Shown here one piece after another: positions 6,718 to 36,670 of a DNA stretch of 64,000 nt. Location of the stretch: NCBI RefSeq assembly GCF_020532705.1, contig NZ_JAJAVD010000001.1, positions 558,001 to 622,000 of the forward strand, given 5' to 3'. The notes below the pieces were generated by a model, which saw only the letters and a list, made by a program, of their open reading frames with translations, had not been told where the DNA came from and made no database searches. The DNA is from Methylobacillus caricis (lineage in GTDB: Bacteria; Pseudomonadota; Gammaproteobacteria; Burkholderiales; Methylophilaceae). Both the position numbers and the translations under genes were made by a program. Numbering within the stretch: the first letter of the stretch is position 1; the number at the start of each line of letters is the position of its first letter.

Positions 6718-7737
6718 CTATTTGATACGCTTGAGAAGATCGGTGATCTTGACGCCTACTTCAGGTTCACCACCAAATCCGGTACCCACTTTCATGGTTT
6801 TCCAGTGCTCGTTGACTGCCGCATATTCATTGGCTGGCAAAGGAATATATTTCACTTCTTCAACCAGTGTCTTGGCATTGGCCAGGTAGAAATCAACGAA
6901 TGCCTTTACGTTGGGATTGTTCTTGGCGGCGTTTGCGCTGACATAAATAAACAATGGGCGTGAAAGCGGCTGGTAAGTGCCGTTCATGACGGTTTCACGT
7001 GACGGCAGCACAGCCGGGGCACCGGCCTTAGCAACAATAGGCACGGCTTTTACGCGGGTGCTGTTTTCTTCATAATAGGCAAACCCGAAGTAACCGGTAG
7101 CCGCGACATCGCTTGCCACACCTTGCACCAGCACATTGTCATCTTCAGAGGCTGTAAAGTCGCCACGGCTGGATTTTGCCTTGCCGACGACGGCTTCAGT
7201 GAAGTAGTCGAAAGTACCGGAGTCGGAGCCTGCACCGAACAGTTTGACCGGTGTGTCAGGCCAGGCGGCGTTGATTTGCTTCCATGTCTTGATCTTGCCC
7301 TGGGCTTCTGGCTCCCAGAGCTTCTTCAGCTCTTCAACGGTGAAGCTCTTGATGAAGGTGTTTTTGGGGTTAATGACTACAGTCAATGCATCATATGCTA
7401 CTGGCAGCTCGATGTATTCAATGCCCGCTGCCTTACAGGCTTCCATTTCCTTGGACAGGATAGGGCGGGAAGCTTCTGAAATATCAGTTTCGCCACGGCA
7501 GAACTTCTTGAAACCACCGCCGGTGCCTGAAATGCCAACCGTGACCTTGATGCGCTTGGCTTTCTGGAAATCCTCGGCAACAGCCTCGGTAATCGGGTAA
7601 ACAGTGCTTGAGCCGTCAATACGGATAATGTCGTTTTTATCGGCTGCATCTGCATGCTGGATAGAAAATGCAGCAGTAACGAGGGCAGCAACACCTGCTA
7701 CCTTCAATAACTGGGTTGGAACAAATTTGGATTGCAT
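6718..7737 (-). CDS. pstS: Periplasmic phosphate-binding protein PstS
   Basis: High-affinity periplasmic phosphate receptor that delivers Pi to PstCA. 339 residues with a signal peptide (LLKVAGVAALVTAAFS, cleavage near HADA-ADKN). Phosphate-contact motifs of the family are visible: DGSSTVYPITEAV near the N-terminus, VGISGTGGGFKKFCRGETDI, and FGAGSDSGTFDYFTEAVVG. The length and the GETDI/ISEASRP segment place it in the longer PstS subgroup rather than with E. coli PstS. First gene of the operon, with a PHO-box-like repeat about 86 bp upstream. Confidence 0.96.
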   Translation of the reverse strand: MQSKFVPTQLLKVAGVAALVTAAFSIQHADAADKNDIIRIDGSSTVYPITEAVAEDFQKAKRIKVTVGISGTGGGFKKFCRGETDISEASRPILSKEMEACKAAGIEYIELPVAYDALTVVINPKNTFIKSFTVEELKKLWEPEAQGKIKTWKQINAAWPDTPVKLFGAGSDSGTFDYFTEAVVGKAKSSRGDFTASEDDNVLVQGVASDVAATGYFGFAYYEENSTRVKAVPIVAKAGAPAVLPSRETVMNGTYQPLSRPLFIYVSANAAKNNPNVKAFVDFYLANAKTLVEEVKYIPLPANEYAAVNEHWKTMKVGTGFGGEPEVGVKITDLLKRIK

Positions 7738-7822
7738 ATAGGCTCCGTCGATTGATCAATGTTGCGTCCGGTGCATGAGGAGGCCGGGTTTTTTGGCAAC
7801 GTGGCAAATATAAAGATGAATT

Positions 7823-7840
7823 GTTTCAGGTTTGTGACAA
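7823..7840 (-). promoter_or_regulatory. PHO box upstream of pstS
   Basis: On the minus strand the site reads TTGTCACAAACCTGAAAC: a 7-mer TTGTCAC, the A-rich spacer AAAC, then CTGAAAC, aligning to the PhoB consensus CTGTCAT-AAAT-CTGTCAC at about 13 or 14 of 18 positions. Its location about 86 bp before the pstS start suits PhoB activation. Confidence 0.7.
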
Positions 7841-7907
7841 TTCAGCAAAAATGCCATTTTGCCTGTCTCATCTCCTCATGTCATGCCTCAATGTCTCGTG
7901 ACGGTGG

Positions 7908-8798
7908 TTAAAATCCCGGATTGATCCTGCGGGGAAGGGCATCTTGATATTGTTGGCGGAATTTTCTCCAGCCAAGCAGTAGCCCGGAGAGCATCAACAG
8001 TATGGTTGAAGGTTCAGGGACGGCTGCGACGGAAGAGCTGGCCATGCTGGATATGCCTCCGGGAATGCTGACGGTTTCCACCCATTGCACTGATTGCCTG
8101 GGTGTTTCGTCCGGATTGCTTGGCACGTATAGCATCATCGTGATATCCAGCCAGTCACGGTAAGCCGTAGGCTGCACATAACAGGATTTGTTGGTCAGGC
8201 AAATGGCAGAAGCGATCCCTCCCAGCACTGGCGCGACTGTATCGGCCAATCCAAGGTACAAGGCGCTGCCACTGTCACCACCTTGCACTATCGGCCTGCC
8301 ATCAGGGCTCTGGTCGGCCACAATCCAATGCACAAAATAGTTGCCAGCGTGGGCATAAGCGTTTACGAGGGTGGTCTCTACATACTGATTGTTGCCATTG
8401 CCGCTCGCATTGGCAAGGGTAACAGTGCTGAAATCTGCAATGTTGCCAGCTTCAATATAAGTTAAATTCAGGGCGGTGAATGGCTGGTTTTCAATGGCAC
8501 TGGAGAGGTGCAGCAATGCAAGGTCATTGCCTGGAAAGTTGTAATTTGGCAGGATGAATTTGGCGTCTATCATGGCCGATCCTGCTCCTGAGGAAAACAT
8601 CTTGCCTGTAGTGGCGGCGTGGCCTGCTGTCAATACCCAGTTTGGCGCAATCAGAACGCCATCAGCTCCGCCTACAATCTGGCCCACCATATCGAAATCT
8701 GTGCTTGGAGTGCCATTAAGCAGTGCATGCGCCGGCGTGCTGCAAACCAGTATTGCCAATAGTATTGAAACGTGGAGTTGAGCGGGGACTGCTGGCAT
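7908..8798 (-). CDS. Secreted trypsin-like serine protease with PEP-CTERM anchor
   Basis: 296 residues: Sec signal peptide (LLAILVCSTPAHA), an S1-type protease body and a PEP-CTERM sorting signal. The catalytic triad is visible in order: His in LTAGHAATTG, Asp in GNDLALLHLSSAI, and Ser in GGDSGSALYLG. The C-terminus is VPEPSTILLMLSGLLLGW followed by RKFRQQYQ: the PEP motif, a membrane helix and a basic tail, the substrate signature for exosortase (EpsH/XrtA family). No exosortase gene is in this window. The natural substrate is unknown; related fusions are thought to act in biofilm matrix or envelope processing, which is inference here. Confidence 0.85.
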   Translation of the reverse strand: MPAVPAQLHVSILLAILVCSTPAHALLNGTPSTDFDMVGQIVGGADGVLIAPNWVLTAGHAATTGKMFSSGAGSAMIDAKFILPNYNFPGNDLALLHLSSAIENQPFTALNLTYIEAGNIADFSTVTLANASGNGNNQYVETTLVNAYAHAGNYFVHWIVADQSPDGRPIVQGGDSGSALYLGLADTVAPVLGGIASAICLTNKSCYVQPTAYRDWLDITMMLYVPSNPDETPRQSVQWVETVSIPGGISSMASSSVAAVPEPSTILLMLSGLLLGWRKFRQQYQDALPRRINPGF

Positions 8799-29581: not shown

Positions 29582-29614
29582 AAAAGAAAAAAGCCAGCGT
29601 GAAAACACGCTGGC
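29582..29614 (-). terminator. Minus-strand intrinsic terminator after suhB
   Basis: A perfect 9-bp GC-rich stem (29593-29601 with 29606-29614, loop AAAA) has its T-run only in the minus-strand reading, where six and then four T follow. No minus-strand gene is known upstream, so it may end a small antisense or intergenic RNA, or an unrecognised transcript. Confidence 0.6.
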
Positions 29615-29807
29615 GTTACACTATGGAGAAGTTGCAAAGAACATGGAGTGAACTCTTAACTTCTGCTTACCATTCTATTTGTCGATAGGTTATGTGGATG
29701 TAGGAATGTCTCATTTCGAGTAAGGGAATTGTTCATTAAGTTTGATTCTGCTAAATAATGAACATTGGGATTTTCTCCCGTATCTGTTTTCGGAGAACTG
29801 ATTTAAA

Positions 29808-31181
29808 TTGCGCAATCGTCTGCAACGGCTCACAAGATCCAGTTCCCCGATGAACCTGAAGCTTCGCCTTAACCTGATCATTACGCTCCTGCTAGCATTG
29901 GTATTATTTTTTGCAGCACTGTTGATGATCCACAATGCACGGAATGATGTACGTGCAGAAGTGGAGTCGACTGCAATGCTTGCCATGCATTTGCTTGATG
30001 CAGAAATTCTTCATTACACCTCGGATTTCGGCTGGCTGCGGAATGATGAAAAAAATCAAAGCTCAATTTTCAGGCTGCAAAGCTTGGAGAATGTCAGGCA
30101 TCTCCGCATAGAGTTCTTTGATGCTTATGGACGTTTGCGGGATAGCAATATTCAACCTGATAAGGAAGAGGGTGTTTCCTGGCTGGTGCGTACCATGGGT
30201 TTTATTTCACCGGCTATGCCTGAGATACGGCGCAAGATTTTTGTCAATGGCCGCATGATAGGCGAGCTGGTTGTGACACCGGATCCATCATATGAAATTG
30301 CCGAGGTGCTTGATGATATTTTTGGATTGCTTGTGCTTGTGGCAATATTTTTTGTCGTTGTGAATGCGGTGGTTTACTGGGCAGTGGGGCGTGCCATGAG
30401 ACCCGTAGATAGTGTCCTATCTGCTTTAAACGAACTTGAGCAGGGAAATCTCAAGGCCAGGTTGCCGGAGTTTGAGTTGCCTGAATTGTCGGGCATCAGC
30501 CGCAAGTTTAATGCGATGGCTGAGACCCTTGAAAAAAGTATACATAGCAATCATAAGTTGACGCAGCAAATGATCCGCTTGCAAGAAGACGAGCGCAAAA
30601 ACCTTGCGCGTGACTTGCATGATGAGATTGGTCAGTATTTGACGGCCGCCCATGTAGATGCTTCTGCAATTCTGAATGCCAAAAGTATTGAGGGGGCAAA
30701 GGAAAGTGCAAAGGCAATCAGTGTGGTAGCCAGGCAGATGATGGATATAGTCCATGACATGCTGCAACGTTTAAGGCCTAGCGGGCTGGACGAGTTTGGT
30801 CTTGCAGTTGCCTTGACGGATCTGATTGATACGTGGCGCCAGCGCAACCGGGCAATTGAAGTGGATGTGGCTATTTCTGAAGGCTTGGAATCTGTGCAGG
30901 ATGAAACCATGGCGATTGCTATTTATCGTATAGTGCAGGAATGCCTGACCAATATCACGCGTCATGCGCATGCAAAAAAAATAGCTATCCACGTTCAGTC
31001 TGAGAACTCGGCTATTGTTCTCAGGATAGATGATGATGGTCAGGGTTTTAATGTCGGGCAGGCGCCATCAGGATTTGGTTTGGCCGGGATGCGTGAACGA
31101 GTGGAAGGTCTTGGCGGAAAGTTTGAGTTAGACAGTGCTCTGGCAGCTGGTACGCGTATTTATGTCAAGTTGCCAATGTAA
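29808..31181 (+). CDS. NarX/UhpB-type sensor histidine kinase
   Basis: 457-residue membrane kinase for the adjacent regulator. Two membrane helices (about 18-42 and 165-195) enclose a periplasmic sensor of about 120 residues, then HAMP (AMRPVDSVLSALNELEQGNL), a HisKA_3 dimerisation helix with the phospho-His near residue 271 in ARDLHDEIGQYLTAAHVD, and the HATPase domain (IVQECLTNITRHAHAKK, GFGLAGMRERVEGLGGKF). A TTG start (29808) has GGAGA at long spacing; the ATG at 29850 is an alternative. The signal is unknown. A 9-bp dyad (29730-29738 with 29756-29764) lies upstream. Confidence 0.88.
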   Translation: MRNRLQRLTRSSSPMNLKLRLNLIITLLLALVLFFAALLMIHNARNDVRAEVESTAMLAMHLLDAEILHYTSDFGWLRNDEKNQSSIFRLQSLENVRHLRIEFFDAYGRLRDSNIQPDKEEGVSWLVRTMGFISPAMPEIRRKIFVNGRMIGELVVTPDPSYEIAEVLDDIFGLLVLVAIFFVVVNAVVYWAVGRAMRPVDSVLSALNELEQGNLKARLPEFELPELSGISRKFNAMAETLEKSIHSNHKLTQQMIRLQEDERKNLARDLHDEIGQYLTAAHVDASAILNAKSIEGAKESAKAISVVARQMMDIVHDMLQRLRPSGLDEFGLAVALTDLIDTWRQRNRAIEVDVAISEGLESVQDETMAIAIYRIVQECLTNITRHAHAKKIAIHVQSENSAIVLRIDDDGQGFNVGQAPSGFGLAGMRERVEGLGGKFELDSALAAGTRIYVKLPM

Positions 31182-31201
31182 ATAATATAAAAGGATAGGG
31201 A

Positions 31202-31843
31202 ATGAGTGCCATTATTCGTGTCATGCTGGTGGATGATCATGAGGTCGTTCGCTCCGGTCTGCGCCGGTTGCTGGAGCAAAGTGATGGCATCGATGTCATT
31301 ATAGAGGCGGATAGCGGTGAACAGGCTTACCAGCTCTATGGAGAGCATCTTCCTGATGTGGTCGTCATGGACATGTCCATGCCTGGTATGGGCGGTCTGG
31401 AAGCCCTGAGACGCATTGTGGCTCGGTATTCTCAGGCGCGGGTCGTGATTTTCTCCATGCATGAGAATGCAGCTTTTGCGTCACAAGCATTGAGCTCAGG
31501 CGCACGCGCGTATGTTGCAAAATCTGGCGCTGCAGATGATCTTGTGCAAGCCGTACGTGAAGTTTCAGTTGGCAAGGGATACCTCAGTTCAGGTATTGCG
31601 CAGAAAATCGCACTACAGAGCCTGTCTGGGGATGATGATCCTACACGATTGTTATCTGCGCGCGAGTTTGAGGTATTCCGATTGCTCGCCGAAGGACATG
31701 GTATTGAAGAGATTGCCACTATCCTCAAAATCAGTCAGAAAACGGTGGCTAATTATCAGACATTACTCAAACAGAAATTGGGGATTAGCAGCCCAATAGA
31801 ATTGGTCAGACTGGCGATCAGGCATGGACTGATAGAGGGATAA
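31202..31843 (+). CDS. NarL/FixJ-family response regulator
   Basis: 213 residues. Receiver domain with the phosphoacceptor Asp57 in VVVMDMSMPGMGGLEAL and the conserved Lys in ARAYVAKSGAADDLV. The LuxR-type helix-turn-helix is at about 150-205 (LSAREFEVFRLLAEGHGIEE, ISQKTVANYQTLLKQKL). 20 bp after the kinase, with which it forms a pair. Paralogous to the regulator at 32.1-32.8 kb. Confidence 0.92.
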   Translation: MSAIIRVMLVDDHEVVRSGLRRLLEQSDGIDVIIEADSGEQAYQLYGEHLPDVVVMDMSMPGMGGLEALRRIVARYSQARVVIFSMHENAAFASQALSSGARAYVAKSGAADDLVQAVREVSVGKGYLSSGIAQKIALQSLSGDDDPTRLLSAREFEVFRLLAEGHGIEEIATILKISQKTVANYQTLLKQKLGISSPIELVRLAIRHGLIEG

Positions 31844-31913
31844 AGCTATTTTGTTGCTATTGTGCTCGAGGATGATTAGTTATTCCTGATATTTGGTGAA
31901 TTTATTCCTTATT

Positions 31914-31927
31914 GGGAATAAATCCCG
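31914..31927. promoter_or_regulatory. GGGA-N5-TCCC dyad upstream of the RNA candidate
   Basis: GGGAATAAATCCCG at 31914-31927, followed by ATCATTT (31928-31934). The identical GGGAATAAATCCCGA occurs on the other strand before the TonB receptor (34267-34283), there too flanked on the plus strand by ATCATTT. Such repetition near two-component genes suggests a shared regulator site. Confidence 0.55.
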
Positions 31928-31929
31928 AT

Positions 31930-32095
31930 CATTTTAGGGAATTACTTGATGGATTATCTATGAGCTTAGGCATACGATACACATGAACAACTTGCGCACC
32001 CAGCGGAATAAGTAAGCCTAGCTCCCAGGCATGTTGTCCATACTCCATACCACTAAGGTTATACTGAAACCAGGCATCCAACCTGGTTTTTTTTT
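31930..32095 (+). ncRNA. Candidate small RNA between two two-component systems
   Basis: These 165 bases contain no plausible reading frame but have RNA-like structure: GAGCTTAGGC (31962-31971) pairs with GCCTAGCTC (32016-32024) leaving one bulged base, and an 8-bp intrinsic terminator with a nine-T tail ends at 32095. The terminator is 224 bp past the preceding stop codon, too far for a simple operon end. The 5' end is not defined; no strong promoter hexamers are seen after the dyad. Alternative: a long structured 3' UTR of the response regulator mRNA. Confidence 0.45.
32067..32095 (+). terminator. Strong terminator before the convergent regulator
   Basis: Stem 32067-32074 with 32082-32089, loop CATCCAA, followed by an uninterrupted T-run. 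Confidence 0.85.
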
Positions 32096-32143
32096 ATCAT
32101 CGAAAGATAATTGCTTGACGTTCAAGTCATTGAATCGTTATTG

Positions 32144-32782
32144 CTATTCGCGTTTTTGACTGATGCCGAACCGGATTGCCATATGGACCAGTTGGCCGGT
32201 AGTTTGAACATTCAGCTTTTGCCTGACCTGCGTTTGGATGTTGGCTGCAGTTTTGTATCCTATGTGCAATTGTTCTGCAATACCCGCCAGTGAAACGCCT
32301 TCGGCTATGCGCCTGAATACTTCGAATTCGCGAGGGGAGAGTTTCTCCAAGGGATTTTCTGAAGGTGAGAAACGATCCATGGCCAGATGCTGGGCCAGTT
32401 CGTGACCAATGTATCGTCCTCCGCGCAGTACTTGCTTCACTGCTTCGAGCAATACTTCGGGGGCATCGGTTTTAACGACATAGCCTTTGGCGCCAGCTTG
32501 CATGGCGCGCGCGGCATAGATATTGTCATCATGCATGCTGAATATAATCAATTTTGCGTTGGCATCGCGCGCGATAATCCGTTGCAGTGTTTCAAGCCCG
32601 CCTATTCCCGGCATATCTAAATCCAGGATTCCCAGATCAGGATGATGCTCTTGCCAAAGAATGGAGGTGCGTTCCCCATTTTCTGCTTCTGCGATGATTT
32701 TATAACCTGCATTTTCCAATAATGTGCGTAAGCCGCTGCGCACAACAGCGTGATCATCGGCTAGCAATATTTTATGAGCCAT
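32144..32782 (-). CDS. NarL/FixJ-family response regulator (second)
   Basis: 212 residues. Receiver with phosphoacceptor Asp in LGILDLDMPGIGGLETLQ and Lys in GAKGYVVKTDAPEVL; LuxR-type helix-turn-helix LSPREFEVFRRIAEGVSLAG and IGYKTAANIQTQVRQKLNV. It ends 1 bp before the kinase frame begins on the same strand (kinase upstream), so the two are cotranscribed. Clearly paralogous to the regulator at 31.2 kb. Confidence 0.92.
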   Translation of the reverse strand: MAHKILLADDHAVVRSGLRTLLENAGYKIIAEAENGERTSILWQEHHPDLGILDLDMPGIGGLETLQRIIARDANAKLIIFSMHDDNIYAARAMQAGAKGYVVKTDAPEVLLEAVKQVLRGGRYIGHELAQHLAMDRFSPSENPLEKLSPREFEVFRRIAEGVSLAGIAEQLHIGYKTAANIQTQVRQKLNVQTTGQLVHMAIRFGISQKRE

Positions 32783-32783
32783 T

Positions 32784-34124
32784 TTATTTATTTTCCTGAA
32801 TTGCTTGTGATGCTGTGGTCAATGGGATGCTGGCTGATATCAAAACCCCTGTGCCATTGCTATGAATGTAAAAAACGCCGCCCTCAGCCTCCACCCTTTC
32901 TCGCATTCCTGAAAGCCCGAATCCTGCACGCGGGGAGTGCGGTTTAAAACCTATACCATCATCTCGTATCTCAATAGAGAGGGTGTCAGATAAAATACCT
33001 CGTGTACGCATGATCTTGACGTCAACAGAATGTGCTTGGGCATGGCGTGCGATATTGGTCAGGGATTCCTGCACAATGCGATAAGCGACTATGCTGATTT
33101 TTTCAGGCAGGTTCTGACAGCTTTTTTCTAGAACTAATGAGCAGGTGATGCCAGGGTGTTGCTTCTTCCATTCATTCACCAACTGGTCCACTGCTTCAAT
33201 TAAGCCATGTGCATCGAGCGCAGTGGGACGTAGCCGGTGAATCAGGCCCCTGACCCCTTGTTGAATATGCTCCACATGTGAATTGATACGTTTTGCATGT
33301 TCAGCGATGGTGTTGTCGGCATCTTTAGGCAGAGAAGCAATGTCCAGCCGGATAGCAGTTAAATACTGCCCCATTTCATCGTGGATTTCTCGCGCAATGT
33401 TTCTGCGTTCCTCTTCCTGTACTTGCATGGCGTGACGTGCCAGCGATTGGTTTTCTTTAAACAGGAGAGCAAGTTCACGTTCAGCCAGATGCTGCTCCGT
33501 GATGTCGGTAAAGAACCCATGAATATTTTTCTGTTCCGCTACCGGACTATCCAGCGTACAGGTCAAGCGGGCCATGACAATCCATGGTGCCCCATCGGGG
33601 CGCTTCACAGATAGTTCGGGAATATCCACTTTTTCGACTACCTTCAGTTTGTTGCACAAGTCATCCCAGTTTTTTCCTAAGGCATTACTCAGGTTAAGGG
33701 TGGCTTCACTTCTTCCGCACATGCTGCTAAATGCTTGATTGCAAATAAGGATGTTTCCTTGCAAATCTGCTACAAAATTACCGCACAATCCTTGATCAAA
33801 GAGCGTTTTGAACATGCGTTGGCTTTCTTTGGATGCATGTTCGGCCTCTACGCGACGTGTGGCTTCTGCTACAACTTCACGCATACGGCGGCGAGAAAAC
33901 CAGATGGCAACTACTGCAGCTGAAAACAATACTAATGGCAGTTCATCCAATTGGAGAGATTCGTGGAGTAAAGCCCATTCAACAAATTTTTCTGAAAGAT
34001 CCAGTTTTGCCGAAACAAAAAACACACTGGCGATAGTGAAAGTAGCGATAACAAGATCACGGTGAGACTGATTAAAACGACTCCAGAATGTGATCATGGG
34101 GGAGGATGGATGGTAAGTGTTCAT
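32784..34124 (-). CDS. PAS-containing sensor histidine kinase
   Basis: 446 residues from the ATG at 34124. Two membrane helices near the N-terminus (about 20-40 and 55-75, nearly no periplasmic loop), a coiled linker, one PAS domain (about 105-215, FKTLFDQGLCGNFVADLQGN), then HisKA_3 with phospho-His about residue 248 in AREIHDEMGQYLTAIRLD and an HATPase domain (IVQESLTNIARHAQAH, GFGLSGMRERVEAEGGVF). The lack of a periplasmic domain suggests a cytoplasmic or membrane signal. Divergent from the TonB receptor with a shared dyad between them. Confidence 0.88.
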   Translation of the reverse strand: MNTYHPSSPMITFWSRFNQSHRDLVIATFTIASVFFVSAKLDLSEKFVEWALLHESLQLDELPLVLFSAAVVAIWFSRRRMREVVAEATRRVEAEHASKESQRMFKTLFDQGLCGNFVADLQGNILICNQAFSSMCGRSEATLNLSNALGKNWDDLCNKLKVVEKVDIPELSVKRPDGAPWIVMARLTCTLDSPVAEQKNIHGFFTDITEQHLAERELALLFKENQSLARHAMQVQEEERRNIAREIHDEMGQYLTAIRLDIASLPKDADNTIAEHAKRINSHVEHIQQGVRGLIHRLRPTALDAHGLIEAVDQLVNEWKKQHPGITCSLVLEKSCQNLPEKISIVAYRIVQESLTNIARHAQAHSVDVKIMRTRGILSDTLSIEIRDDGIGFKPHSPRAGFGLSGMRERVEAEGGVFYIHSNGTGVLISASIPLTTASQAIQENK

Positions 34125-34267
34125 TATCAGGGTATTTTGAATAGCGCAATCATTATGAGGAAGTGATTTTTTCCTGAAATCGCCTGGTAGATGGGAGGTT
34201 TGTGAATATTTCCTGATTGTGTGGTTGATTACATAATTTAACAATGGAGATTAATAATTAATATATT

Positions 34268-34283
34268 CGGGATTTATTCCCGG
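34268..34283. promoter_or_regulatory. Dyad operator between kinase operon and TonB receptor
   Basis: CGGGATTTATTCCCGG (34268-34283) followed by GA and ATCATTT. Its core is the reverse complement of the site at 31914-31927. Further GGGAATT-type elements lie close by (reverse-oriented GAATTCCCC at 34298-34306). Its position between divergent genes suits control of both. Confidence 0.55.
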
Positions 34284-34453
34284 AATCATTTGTGATGAAT
34301 TCCCCTTTTAGGTTTGGGCTTATCCCCGGAAACTCTCGCCTGTTGCTGATTACATTTTTTTACAATTACAAAAAATCAGTGATATTTATGGAGAAGACCA
34401 GGTTGGTCCTGAAGTTCAACCTGACATTAATGAGATTAAGAGGGAATTCCAAC

Positions 34454-36670
34454 GTGATTAAAAAACCAATGATGGGGATGGCCGCCATGATTCTTGTGAT
34501 GCCGGCTTTTGCGGCAGAACTAGCCAGCCAGCAAGATACAGCAAAGGCCACACCAGGTGATGAGCAATTGCTGACTGATAAGGTCAAAGTCACCAGTATC
34601 CTGCCTGACCGTCTGGAAGCGGTTCCAGGCTCTTTCAATGTCGTGGATGAAAAGGAGCTGAAGTCTCGCCAGCCTTTCAGCGTCCGTGAGGCATTGAACC
34701 AGGTGCCCGGCATTAATATAGTGGGCGAAGATGCCTTCGTCCTTGCTCCCAATATTGGTATTCGTGGCCTGAATCCGCGCCGTACTTCGCGCACTTTGCT
34801 GATGGAGGATGGCATGCCATTGTTCCTGGCGCCATATGGCGATCCGTCGGCACATTACTCCACTCCGCTGGATCGTGTAAGCCGCATTGAGGTAGTGAAA
34901 GGCTCTGGACAAACTCTATATGGCCCCCAAACGATAGGCGGCATGATCAATTTCGTGACTAAGCCTGTGCCAAAAGAATTCCAGGCGAGTGTCATGGCGA
35001 TTATTGGCAATAACAACTTCAGTGGCGGACACGTCAATATCGGAACCGGTGGCGATTGGGGCGGGATCATGTTGGATGCTGTCAACCGCAAGGGGGATGG
35101 TATTCGCAGGAACCACGATTTTGAGATTAATGAGCTGACCTTGAAAGGGCAATTGAACCTTGATGACCGCAATACCTTGATCGCCAAGGTGGGCTGGTAT
35201 GAAGAGAATTCCAGCGTTTCGGAAACCGGTCTGGGCCTGGTTGAATACAATGAGGACAAATACCAGGCACCTACTGGCAAGCAAGACTCTTTCAATCACA
35301 CCCGAAAGACCCTACAACTGCAGCACATTTTCCAGGTGAACGACAAGGCTAAGCTGAGCACGCAATTTTATTATGCCAATTCCGAGCGTGCATCTTTTCG
35401 CCAGATCAATGATCCAGGTGGATTGGGAGGCCGCTCGGAAATGGATCGTTGTGCAGGCGTAGTGGCGACGGAGGCAAACTCGGCACAGTGTGGCGGTCGC
35501 TGGCGTCCCCGTGATTTTGATTATTGGGGTGTTGAGCCGAGACTGGATATAAGCCACAGCTTGTTTGGTATCGAGAGTGATGCCGTGATTGGCTTCCGTT
35601 ATCACAAGGAAGACCAGAACCGCAATCAATACCGTGACGGTAACCCTTTGGCGCAGAGCCTGAATTGGGCGATTGCCAATGGTAGCCATCGTGAGGATAT
35701 TCGGATTGATGTCGAGGCCAAATCCTATTATGCCCAGAATACCTTTTATCTGGGCAACTGGAGCGTGACACCAGGGTTGCGCGTGGAGGATGTGAAGAAG
35801 CGCACGAATATTGCCCGTGCGGAAGGCGCCTTGCAAGACATTCAATACGATAACAACGAGACAGTCTATCTGCCTGGCCTGGGAGTGGCCTGGAACGGGA
35901 TTGCCAACACCACTTTCTTTGCTGGCATCCACCGTGGTTATGCGCCTCCGCGACCAGACAGGGATATTGCCCAGAATACCTTGGGCGACGTGGTGGCAAG
36001 CCGCACCAAGGCCGAGAAAAGCACCAATATTGAATTCGGGGTCAGGAGTCATTACTTCAAGGGGGTAACAGTGGAGTCCACGCTGTTCAATATTGATTTC
36101 GACAATATCGTGATTGGCACAGGTGACGGTTCCGGACGCTTTATCAATGCAGGCAAGGCCCAGCATACCGGGTTGGAAATCGCAGGCCGTGTTGATTTGG
36201 GCACGGTATACGATACACCACATAATTTTTATGTATCCGGTAACTACACCAGCCTGTTCACCGCGAAGTTCAGGAACAGCCGCACGATTGTTGATGAAGA
36301 TGGCGATGTTACTACCGACAGCTTCGATAGTGGTAATCGCCTGACATATGCACCCAAGCATATTGCATCGGTCAATTTCGGCTATCAGCATCCAGTTGGG
36401 TTTGAGGCACGCATCGGGGTGGACTATGTCAGCAAGCAATATGCGGACAATACCAATACTACCGCGGCAAGTCTGTCAGGACTGACCGGTACCATTCCGT
36501 CCTACGCCTTGATCAGCGCTTCTGCCAGCTATCGTCCAATTGGCAGCAAGGCGACCTTTTTTGTCAGCGGCCATAACCTGGGAGACAAGGAATACCTTGC
36601 AAGCCGTGTAGACGGCATGGTTGCAGGCCGCCAGCGTCAAGTGTTTGGTGGCGTACGCTACGACTTTTAG
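34454..36670 (+). CDS. TonB-dependent outer-membrane receptor (FecA-like)
   Basis: 738 residues from the GTG at 34454, chosen because AAGAGGGA (34438-34445) is well spaced and the signal peptide then begins immediately (VIKKPMMGMAAMILVMPAFA). The plug domain (about 60-180) shows VREALNQVPGINIVGEDAFV, NIGIRGLNPRRTSRTLLMED and IEVVKGSGQTLYGPQTIGGM. A 22-strand-type barrel ends in RQRQVFGGVRYDF with terminal Phe. The plug resembles ferric-citrate-type receptors, but the ligand is not determined. No FecIR-type pair is adjacent; instead two NarL-type systems are. Confidence 0.9.
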   Translation: MIKKPMMGMAAMILVMPAFAAELASQQDTAKATPGDEQLLTDKVKVTSILPDRLEAVPGSFNVVDEKELKSRQPFSVREALNQVPGINIVGEDAFVLAPNIGIRGLNPRRTSRTLLMEDGMPLFLAPYGDPSAHYSTPLDRVSRIEVVKGSGQTLYGPQTIGGMINFVTKPVPKEFQASVMAIIGNNNFSGGHVNIGTGGDWGGIMLDAVNRKGDGIRRNHDFEINELTLKGQLNLDDRNTLIAKVGWYEENSSVSETGLGLVEYNEDKYQAPTGKQDSFNHTRKTLQLQHIFQVNDKAKLSTQFYYANSERASFRQINDPGGLGGRSEMDRCAGVVATEANSAQCGGRWRPRDFDYWGVEPRLDISHSLFGIESDAVIGFRYHKEDQNRNQYRDGNPLAQSLNWAIANGSHREDIRIDVEAKSYYAQNTFYLGNWSVTPGLRVEDVKKRTNIARAEGALQDIQYDNNETVYLPGLGVAWNGIANTTFFAGIHRGYAPPRPDRDIAQNTLGDVVASRTKAEKSTNIEFGVRSHYFKGVTVESTLFNIDFDNIVIGTGDGSGRFINAGKAQHTGLEIAGRVDLGTVYDTPHNFYVSGNYTSLFTAKFRNSRTIVDEDGDVTTDSFDSGNRLTYAPKHIASVNFGYQHPVGFEARIGVDYVSKQYADNTNTTAASLSGLTGTIPSYALISASASYRPIGSKATFFVSGHNLGDKEYLASRVDGMVAGRQRQVFGGVRYDF

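Follow-up and report, generated by a model that had tools for sequence, protein, structure and literature searches.

The window analysed here is a stretch of 64,000 nucleotides of Methylobacillus caricis (contig NZ_JAJAVD010000001.1, positions 558,001 to 622,000, that is, C1:558001-622000 of the source genome G000). It contains a locus in which two two-component systems, each made of a sensor kinase (HK) and a response regulator (RR), stand beside two putative small RNAs (sRNAs) and a TonB-dependent receptor, with a short dyad in three of the gaps between them. A sequence-only reading of this DNA had proposed that shared GGGAAT-type sites connect the two systems, an RNA and the receptor, and this was right. 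Its list of elements was incomplete, lacking the dyad GGGATTTTCTCCC at 29767-29779 and an RNA on the minus strand at about 29587-29665. The features of the locus, in window positions, are as follows.

29587-29665 (ends approximate), minus strand: sRNA1, with a 5' hairpin that has a CACTCCATG loop, a linker and an intrinsic terminator; found in six of six Methylobacillus genomes
29619-29631, minus strand: seed of sRNA1, CTTCTCCATAGTG, the CU-rich linker
29672-29677, minus strand: -10 element of sRNA1, TAGAAT, read from the sequence and kept in six of six genomes
29701-29715, minus strand: degenerate site RTGASACWTTCCT in the -42 slot of the sRNA1 promoter, six of six genomes
29724-29738, minus strand: degenerate site RTGAANATTTCCC in the -65 slot of the sRNA1 promoter, containing GGGAATT, 23 bp from the RTGASACWTTCCT site
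29767-29779, no strand: dyad 1, GGGATTTTCTCCC, in the HK1 promoter, centre at about -42 (alignment, strict search and promoter geometry)
29803-29808, plus strand: -10-like element of HK1, TTAAAT, 37 nt past the first base of the 15-bp dyad
29850-31181, plus strand: HK1, sensor kinase with HAMP, HisKA_3 and HATPase_c domains (domain search and homology)
31202-31843, plus strand: RR1, receiver and LuxR/GerE helix-turn-helix (HTH), best candidate for the dyad binder (domain search and comparative data)
31914-31926, no strand: dyad 2, GGGAATAAATCCC, in the -65 slot of the sRNA2 promoter (alignment)
31936-31950, plus strand: half-site AGGGAATTA in the -42 slot of the sRNA2 promoter, six of six genomes
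31973-31978, plus strand: -10 element of sRNA2, TACGAT
31985-32095 (ends approximate), plus strand: sRNA2, with a terminator CCAGG..CCTGG and a T run; strong matches in the genus only
32042-32049, plus strand: seed of sRNA2, ACTCCATA
32144-32782, minus strand: RR2, paralogue of RR1 (46% identity), receiver and GerE/LuxR HTH (domain search and comparison)
32784-34124, minus strand: HK2, sensor kinase with PAS, HisKA_3 and HATPase_c domains, proposed start ATG 34124
34269-34281, no strand: dyad 3, GGGATTTATTCCC, in the gap between HK2 and the receptor
34297-34304: inverted half-site GAATTCCC, about 23 bp from dyad 3
34387-34396, plus strand: TATGGAGAAG in the receptor leader, complementary to the sRNA1 seed; TATGGAGA is conserved in the gap alignment
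34454-36670, plus strand: TonB-dependent receptor, FecA-like, proposed GTG start with Shine-Dalgarno (SD) sequence AGAGGGAA

The start of HK1 was shifted from TTG 29808 to ATG 29850, because in many genera the homologous stretch starts at residue 15. RR1 shares 98% identity with its M. gramineus counterpart. Both regulators are, as had been said, paralogues with a LuxR-type HTH. The best match of the receptor is FecA, with 225 bits against an NCBIfam cut-off of 1100. In G002, which is probably M. flagellatus KT, the receptor matches only up to residue 332 (L054, about 7419-8372) and unrelated sequence follows; the remainder of the gene was not found within the next 3 kb. The gene is thus broken, and this strain may be without this receptor.

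The 15-mer GGGAATAAATCCCGA, on which the sequence-only reading was built, has exactly two copies in the window, at 31914-31928 (plus strand) and 34267-34281 (minus strand), and these are the only exact copies in the whole 2.97-Mb genome, where about 0.006 copies of any given 15-mer are expected by arithmetic. The sole place in the genome with one mismatch lies before LanP, a gene for a PepSY protein. GGGAATAAATCCCGA is one form of the dyad YGGGAN5TCCCR. When the six Methylobacillus genomes (G000 to G005) were aligned, GGGAN5TCCC was found at the same spot in each of three intergenic gaps in all six, before HK1 (29767), between RR1 and RR2 (31914) and between HK2 and the receptor (34269), with AGGA in place of GGGA in a few copies. 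The ATCATTT reported behind both 15-mers is present in the window but is not kept in the five relatives, and was rejected as part of the motif. Single GGGAATT copies were confirmed at 29724, 31937 and 34298; the first is inside the degenerate conserved site of the sRNA1 promoter and the second inside a conserved slot of the sRNA2 promoter. The 7-mer is nevertheless not enriched (6 observed against 9.9 expected in the window), and it was discarded as an independent motif. A looser search, CGGGAN5TCCCG with one mismatch, gave 76 matches against 140 for its reversed control and is uninformative.

The promoters of sRNA1 and sRNA2 have the same two slots, 23 bp apart. In the sRNA2 promoter, the distal slot holds a perfect dyad and the proximal slot a half-site; the RTGASACWTTCCT site of sRNA1 resembles in form the degenerate mxaF sites of other genera. 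Neither the receptor nor HK2 could be named as a clear target of dyad 3, since no convincing -10 element was seen by eye at the expected spacing.

A genome-wide search, which the sequence-only reading had called for, shows that strict dyads are rare and concentrated on few gene classes, rather than common without relation to these genes. The strict form GGGANWWWWTCCC occurs at 44 distinct places in the six Methylobacillus genomes. Thirty of these, assigned by hand, belong to this locus (13), XoxF (4), mxaF (2), LanP (4), moxR-like genes (5) and a gap next to tonB (2); the remaining 14, some of them intragenic, look like chance. XoxF and MxaF are members of the pyrroloquinoline quinone (PQQ) methanol/ethanol dehydrogenase family, and show the expected difference in the extra Asp that marks XoxF (DYD) against MxaF (DFA). 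With a weight matrix, two XoxF groups carry the dyad in nine of the nine genes of the genus, and the three other PQQ-dehydrogenase groups of the genus show none at a score of 14. The mxaF dyad was found in four of the six genomes, about 240 bp ahead of the open frame (in G003 with a score of 11.8 only). A fragmented PQQ dehydrogenase gene at G000:C1:73973-75602, below the family cut-off, is a possible pseudogene.

Strict dyads precede LanP in G000, G001, G004 and G005, and the weight matrix finds them in five of six genomes, G002 having a weak form only. An orthologue of LanP is present in all six; it is exported, has two PepSY stretches and is orthologous to the M. flagellatus protein. The G002 copy is identical to the chain of PDB 9vy3, which would be lanpepsy, the lanthanide-binding protein that reviews describe for M. 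flagellatus (PMC11845868, PMC12482762). LanP occurs twice in G002 (L089/L090), 143 kb apart. Counted by eye, 32 nt separate the -10 element of LanP from the dyad start in G000, G001 and G004, and 34 nt do so in G003, which puts this dyad on a different face from the HK1 dyad. Furthermore, strict dyads stand before a moxR-like AAA ATPase gene in G000 to G004, and between tonB and a quinoprotein-relay metallohydrolase in G003 and G005. The moxR-like gene is the first of a second mxa-type cluster (L180:8275-13701; G000:C1:438274-443700), whose members resemble mxaRSACKL by eye; this cluster is separate from the mxaF cluster and has the dyad ahead of it in five of six genomes.

Sigma-54-type promoters have the consensus TGGCAY-N5-TTGC. 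Such a promoter is visible by eye in both Methylobacillus XoxF groups; in one of them it is closely followed by the dyad, and in the other the dyad precedes it by about 30 bp. Because neither position suits a simple activator, the XoxF promoters would be repressed through the dyad.

Across the family, 78 of the 120 Methylophilaceae genomes searched have, by our count, an RR1-grade match (E < 1e-70, or split in G003). Among 38 neighbourhoods, several of the surveyed genomes being close relatives, HK1-RR1 adjoins XoxF, LanP, MxaF together with an RR2/HK2-like pair, or the receptor in several genera, and in some genera it stands beside none of these; in the window the receptor is the only such gene beside it. 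A HisKA_3 kinase with a LuxR-type regulator, linked to mxa or xox genes in several genera, is the arrangement of the MxaY/MxaB type. The dyad precedes HK1 with a score of at least 14 in 32 of 41 upstream regions, from 14 genera. These regions comprise 35 of the 38 neighbourhoods and the six Methylobacillus loci; L212, L219 and L220 were excluded, as HK1 was absent or incomplete, and in L184, L207 and L208 the best dyad of the region belongs to an sRNA and not to HK1. In 21 of the 32 (10 of 14 when one per genus is taken), a -10 element TANNNT starts 37-38 nt past the first base of the 15-bp dyad, and the dyad centre is therefore near -42, which is the position of a class II activator.

The methanol-dehydrogenase genes of the family were surveyed in a set of 120, a subset of all those detected, with dinucleotide shuffles giving the expectation. 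Dyads with a score of at least 14 precede 7 of 26 MxaF genes (0.03 expected), 7 of 8 genes of the XoxF cluster that adjoins HK1-RR1 (0.00 expected) and 12 of 80 genes of a large XoxF cluster (0.15 expected); a fourth dehydrogenase cluster (0/4) and two singletons (0/2) have none at this score. In 16 genomes that have RR1, 51 strict dyads were counted, compared with 14 matches to the reversed control; in 14 genomes that lack it, the counts are 16 and 17. These genomes were hand-chosen, 16 from the 78 with an RR1-grade match and 14 from the 42 without one at E < 1e-70, several of the latter being drafts. The RR1 of Methylophaga has 55-76% identity and is mostly found ahead of XoxF-like genes, in several cases with the dyad between. 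Taken together, these comparisons make RR1 the likely binder of the dyad. In Methyloversatilis, two strong dyads 19 bp apart (L453:2087-2120 and L455:2933-2966) stand just downstream of a 47% identical relative of RR1.

The sequence-only reading took both paralogous LuxR-type regulators for the obvious binders. A regulator of this kind is indeed the obvious binder, and it is possible, though less likely than not, that RR2, or RR1 and RR2 together, bind the dyad and that the locus mainly serves cross-regulation between the paralogues. RR2 is 46% identical to RR1, RR2/HK2-like pairs are divergent from mxaF in three genera (g3, g16 and g17) and near an MxaF-like gene in g19, and many MxaF genes have a degenerate site of GTGA form, GTGAN4TTCCC. 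On the other hand, the HK1 dyad is kept in neighbourhoods in which no RR2 was found (e.g. G053, G025 and G052; RR2 elsewhere in those genomes was not sought), so that RR1 suffices there and the proposed cross-regulation, possible as it is, is not needed. A third paralogous pair, RR3/HK3, is located at G000:C1:879025-879660 (L059), with RR3 49% identical to RR1. It is conserved across the family, also in small genomes without RR1, and adjoins HK1-RR1 in Methylophaga; as no strict dyad lies nearby, it was rejected as a dyad binder.

The RNA named by the sequence-only reading was sRNA2, and the proposed role fits instead the RNA on the opposite strand upstream of HK1. sRNA1 is nearly invariant across the six Methylobacillus genomes, and sRNA2, which shares ACTCCAT with it, is less conserved. 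A model of sRNA1 (R1) has two weak matches beyond the genus, in G020 (E 1.2e-4) and G025 (E 0.004), both of them syntenic and with a dyad nearby. Further matches to R1 are in G013:C19 and at another position in G003; the sRNA2 model (R2) has a match in G039. No Rfam family matched above its gathering score, the only hit being a sub-threshold engA (E 0.67). A scan of the neighbourhoods for CTCCA[AT]A before a terminator, which admits both seed classes described below and is biased toward this RNA shape, gave dyad-linked RNAs in G053, G069, G116, G111, G083, G052, G026, G058 and G020, all with the dyad 79-81 nt ahead of the seed; in G022 and G025 the distances differ, and a few matches had no dyad.

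The complement of the sRNA1 linker, ACTATGGAGAA, occurs at 26 places in the six genomes. Six are sRNA1 itself, and 17 of the other 20 are ribosome-binding sites (RBSs), eight of them ahead of XoxF. Against the XoxF RBSs of its own genome, sRNA1 has matches of 11-13 nt at 12 of 16 genes and of 10 nt at one, against 8 nt for the mxaF RBS; none of 114 control RBSs reaches 11 nt and a few reach 10. Here the RBS was taken at the first start with an SD sequence in each open frame, so that some may be misplaced, L113 probably among them. In four genomes, a small exported protein (with CHVNATAMNL or a close form; L343, L338, L344 and L347) has the ACTATGGAGAA RBS as well, which makes it a possible further target of sRNA1. 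Pairing of sRNA1 with TATGGAGAAG in the receptor leader is also predicted.

In other genera, the best match between an sRNA and an XoxF RBS of the same genome is 13 nt (G026, G052), 12 (G069), 11 (G058), 9 (G020) or 8 (G022, G025). Over all genes of a genus, the best matches are 14 (g1), 17 (g7), 15 (g22), 12 (g19), 9 (g16), 8 (g18) and 8 nt (g21); in four of the seven genera the sRNAs that adjoin HK1-RR1 thus match a xoxF RBS over 12-17 nt, and in the other three over 8-9 nt. Two seed classes can be distinguished: CTCCATAG goes with the XoxF RBS CTATGGAG in g1, g16, g18 and g21, and CTCCAAA goes with CTTTGGAG in g7, g19 and g22, in neither case at every gene. Seed class and RBS class agree in seven of seven genera, with g16 (G020) carrying both seeds, and 27 of 5040 permutations of the genus pairing perform as well as the true one when the best match per genus is taken and the tree is ignored. 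sRNA1 and the dyad-linked RNAs are conserved terminator RNAs that are complementary to a target RBS and covary with it, like RNAs of the RyhB kind. This points to an sRNA that spares lanthanide by silencing xoxF, a role that sRNA1 would fill in the window. sRNA2 was rejected as a regulator of xoxF because its match is at the level of the controls.

It is unlikely, in our estimate, that the dyad is the RR1 operator of methanol genes and the sRNAs are unconnected to xoxF, with CUCC seeds that are generic anti-Shine-Dalgarno sequences. SD-bearing 11-mers are generally enriched at RBSs, and nine of the 17 ACTATGGAGAA copies found there are not ahead of xoxF; sRNA2 does no better than controls, and the shared RBS of xoxF paralogues may reflect descent. 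However, the matches of the sRNAs to xoxF extend past the SD sequence on both sides and covary between genera, and eight of the 17 copies belong to xoxF, of which there are only about five genes per genome. We consider it improbable that an unrelated transcription factor binds the dyad and controls the methanol genes: the pairing of RR1 with the dyad comes from sequence comparison, yet the excess of dyads follows the presence of RR1 and the dyad sits at -42 of HK1-RR1 itself. An ordinary iron or siderophore uptake circuit, to which the best match of the receptor, FecA, would point with a score far below the cut-off, is very improbable, as the dyad precedes methanol dehydrogenases, LanP and moxR-like genes; the local nutrient-uptake circuit of the sequence-only reading is likewise better described as a regulon of the methanol-dehydrogenase/lanthanide switch, conserved across the family.

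YGGGAN5TCCCR is thus, in our view, probably the operator of RR1, the partner of HK1, in a lanthanide switch of methanol oxidation that has an sRNA arm. By analogy with MxaY/MxaB, the signal for phosphorylation of RR1 would be lanthanide scarcity. Phosphorylated RR1 would activate its own operon and mxaF, act on the receptor promoter, block the xoxF promoters and turn on small RNAs whose CU-rich seed covers the xoxF RBS. The lanthanide enzyme would then be left untranslated when its metal is missing, as RyhB does for iron enzymes. In RyhB-type systems, a regulator of metal scarcity drives an sRNA that covers the RBSs of metal-requiring enzymes; the proposed sRNA differs in that the metal is a lanthanide and not iron, in that it would be activated by a response regulator and not released from a repressor, and in having no Rfam match. 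The comparative evidence argues strongly for the operator; the sRNA arm, the newest part of this account, is likely but unproven.

Several observations weigh against this account. The mxaF sites are often degenerate, the copy in G000 scoring 4.4 and G002 having none convincing, and the sRNA1 promoter has two degenerate RTGAN5TCCY sites. Nine of the 41 HK1 upstream regions have no dyad at a score of 14, and outside Methylobacillus the dyad precedes three genes only of the large XoxF cluster. The match to sRNA1 is only 6-7 nt at three of the 16 XoxF RBSs (G002 L118, G003 L113 and L117), and sRNA2, with a perfect dyad in its promoter, matches xoxF over 7 nt only. Duplex energy discriminates weakly between xoxF and controls, and match length does so better. 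The xoxF RBS ACTATGGAGA is also conserved in genera in which no sRNA was found, and may be kept for other reasons. Finally, the protein levels of two two-component systems of M. flagellatus are given as unchanged by lanthanum in a review (PMC11845868); phosphorylation is a separate matter.

The arrangement is like that of Methylomicrobium buryatense, with a sensor kinase and paralogous response regulators (MxaY, MxaB and METBUDRAFT_1817). There, when lanthanum is absent, MxaY and MxaB, an orphan regulator, increase mxaF and decrease xoxF; mxaB is itself controlled by lanthanide, and the neighbouring METBUDRAFT_1817, 50% identical to MxaB, has no effect on the switch (PMC5018670). M. buryatense belongs to another bacterial family and is likened here by description, not by sequence; the accessible part of that account names neither a binding site nor a small RNA arm. 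MxaXYZ of Paracoccus and MxaY/MxaB of Methylocella are likewise two-component systems that adjoin mxaF (PMC5018670, PMC9291206), and differ in being alphaproteobacterial and in the reported low identity of MxaY to database homologues. No operator is named in the accessible parts of this MxaF/XoxF switch literature, and our literature search found no report of this operator or of an sRNA acting on xoxF; its coverage of subscription journals was thin, which makes it weak evidence of novelty. LanP (lanpepsy) of Methylobacillus flagellatus is here a member of the regulon and not a regulator.

At issue is the way in which methylotrophs sense rare earths and change over between MxaF and XoxF. A defined operator allows immediate prediction of the regulon and binding tests in Methylobacillus, Methylovorus, Methylotenera and Methylophaga. 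For the Methylophilaceae, we give about an even chance to a switch of two layers, in which a response regulator at GGGAN5TCCC drives a family of sRNAs that mask the xoxF RBS, so that scarcity stops XoxF both at the promoter and in translation. Such an sRNA would be lanthanide-sparing and would co-evolve with its target across genera. If this is true, a rare-earth-sparing sRNA is a new use of known regulatory logic, and it would offer a handle for lanthanide biosensors and recovery strains.

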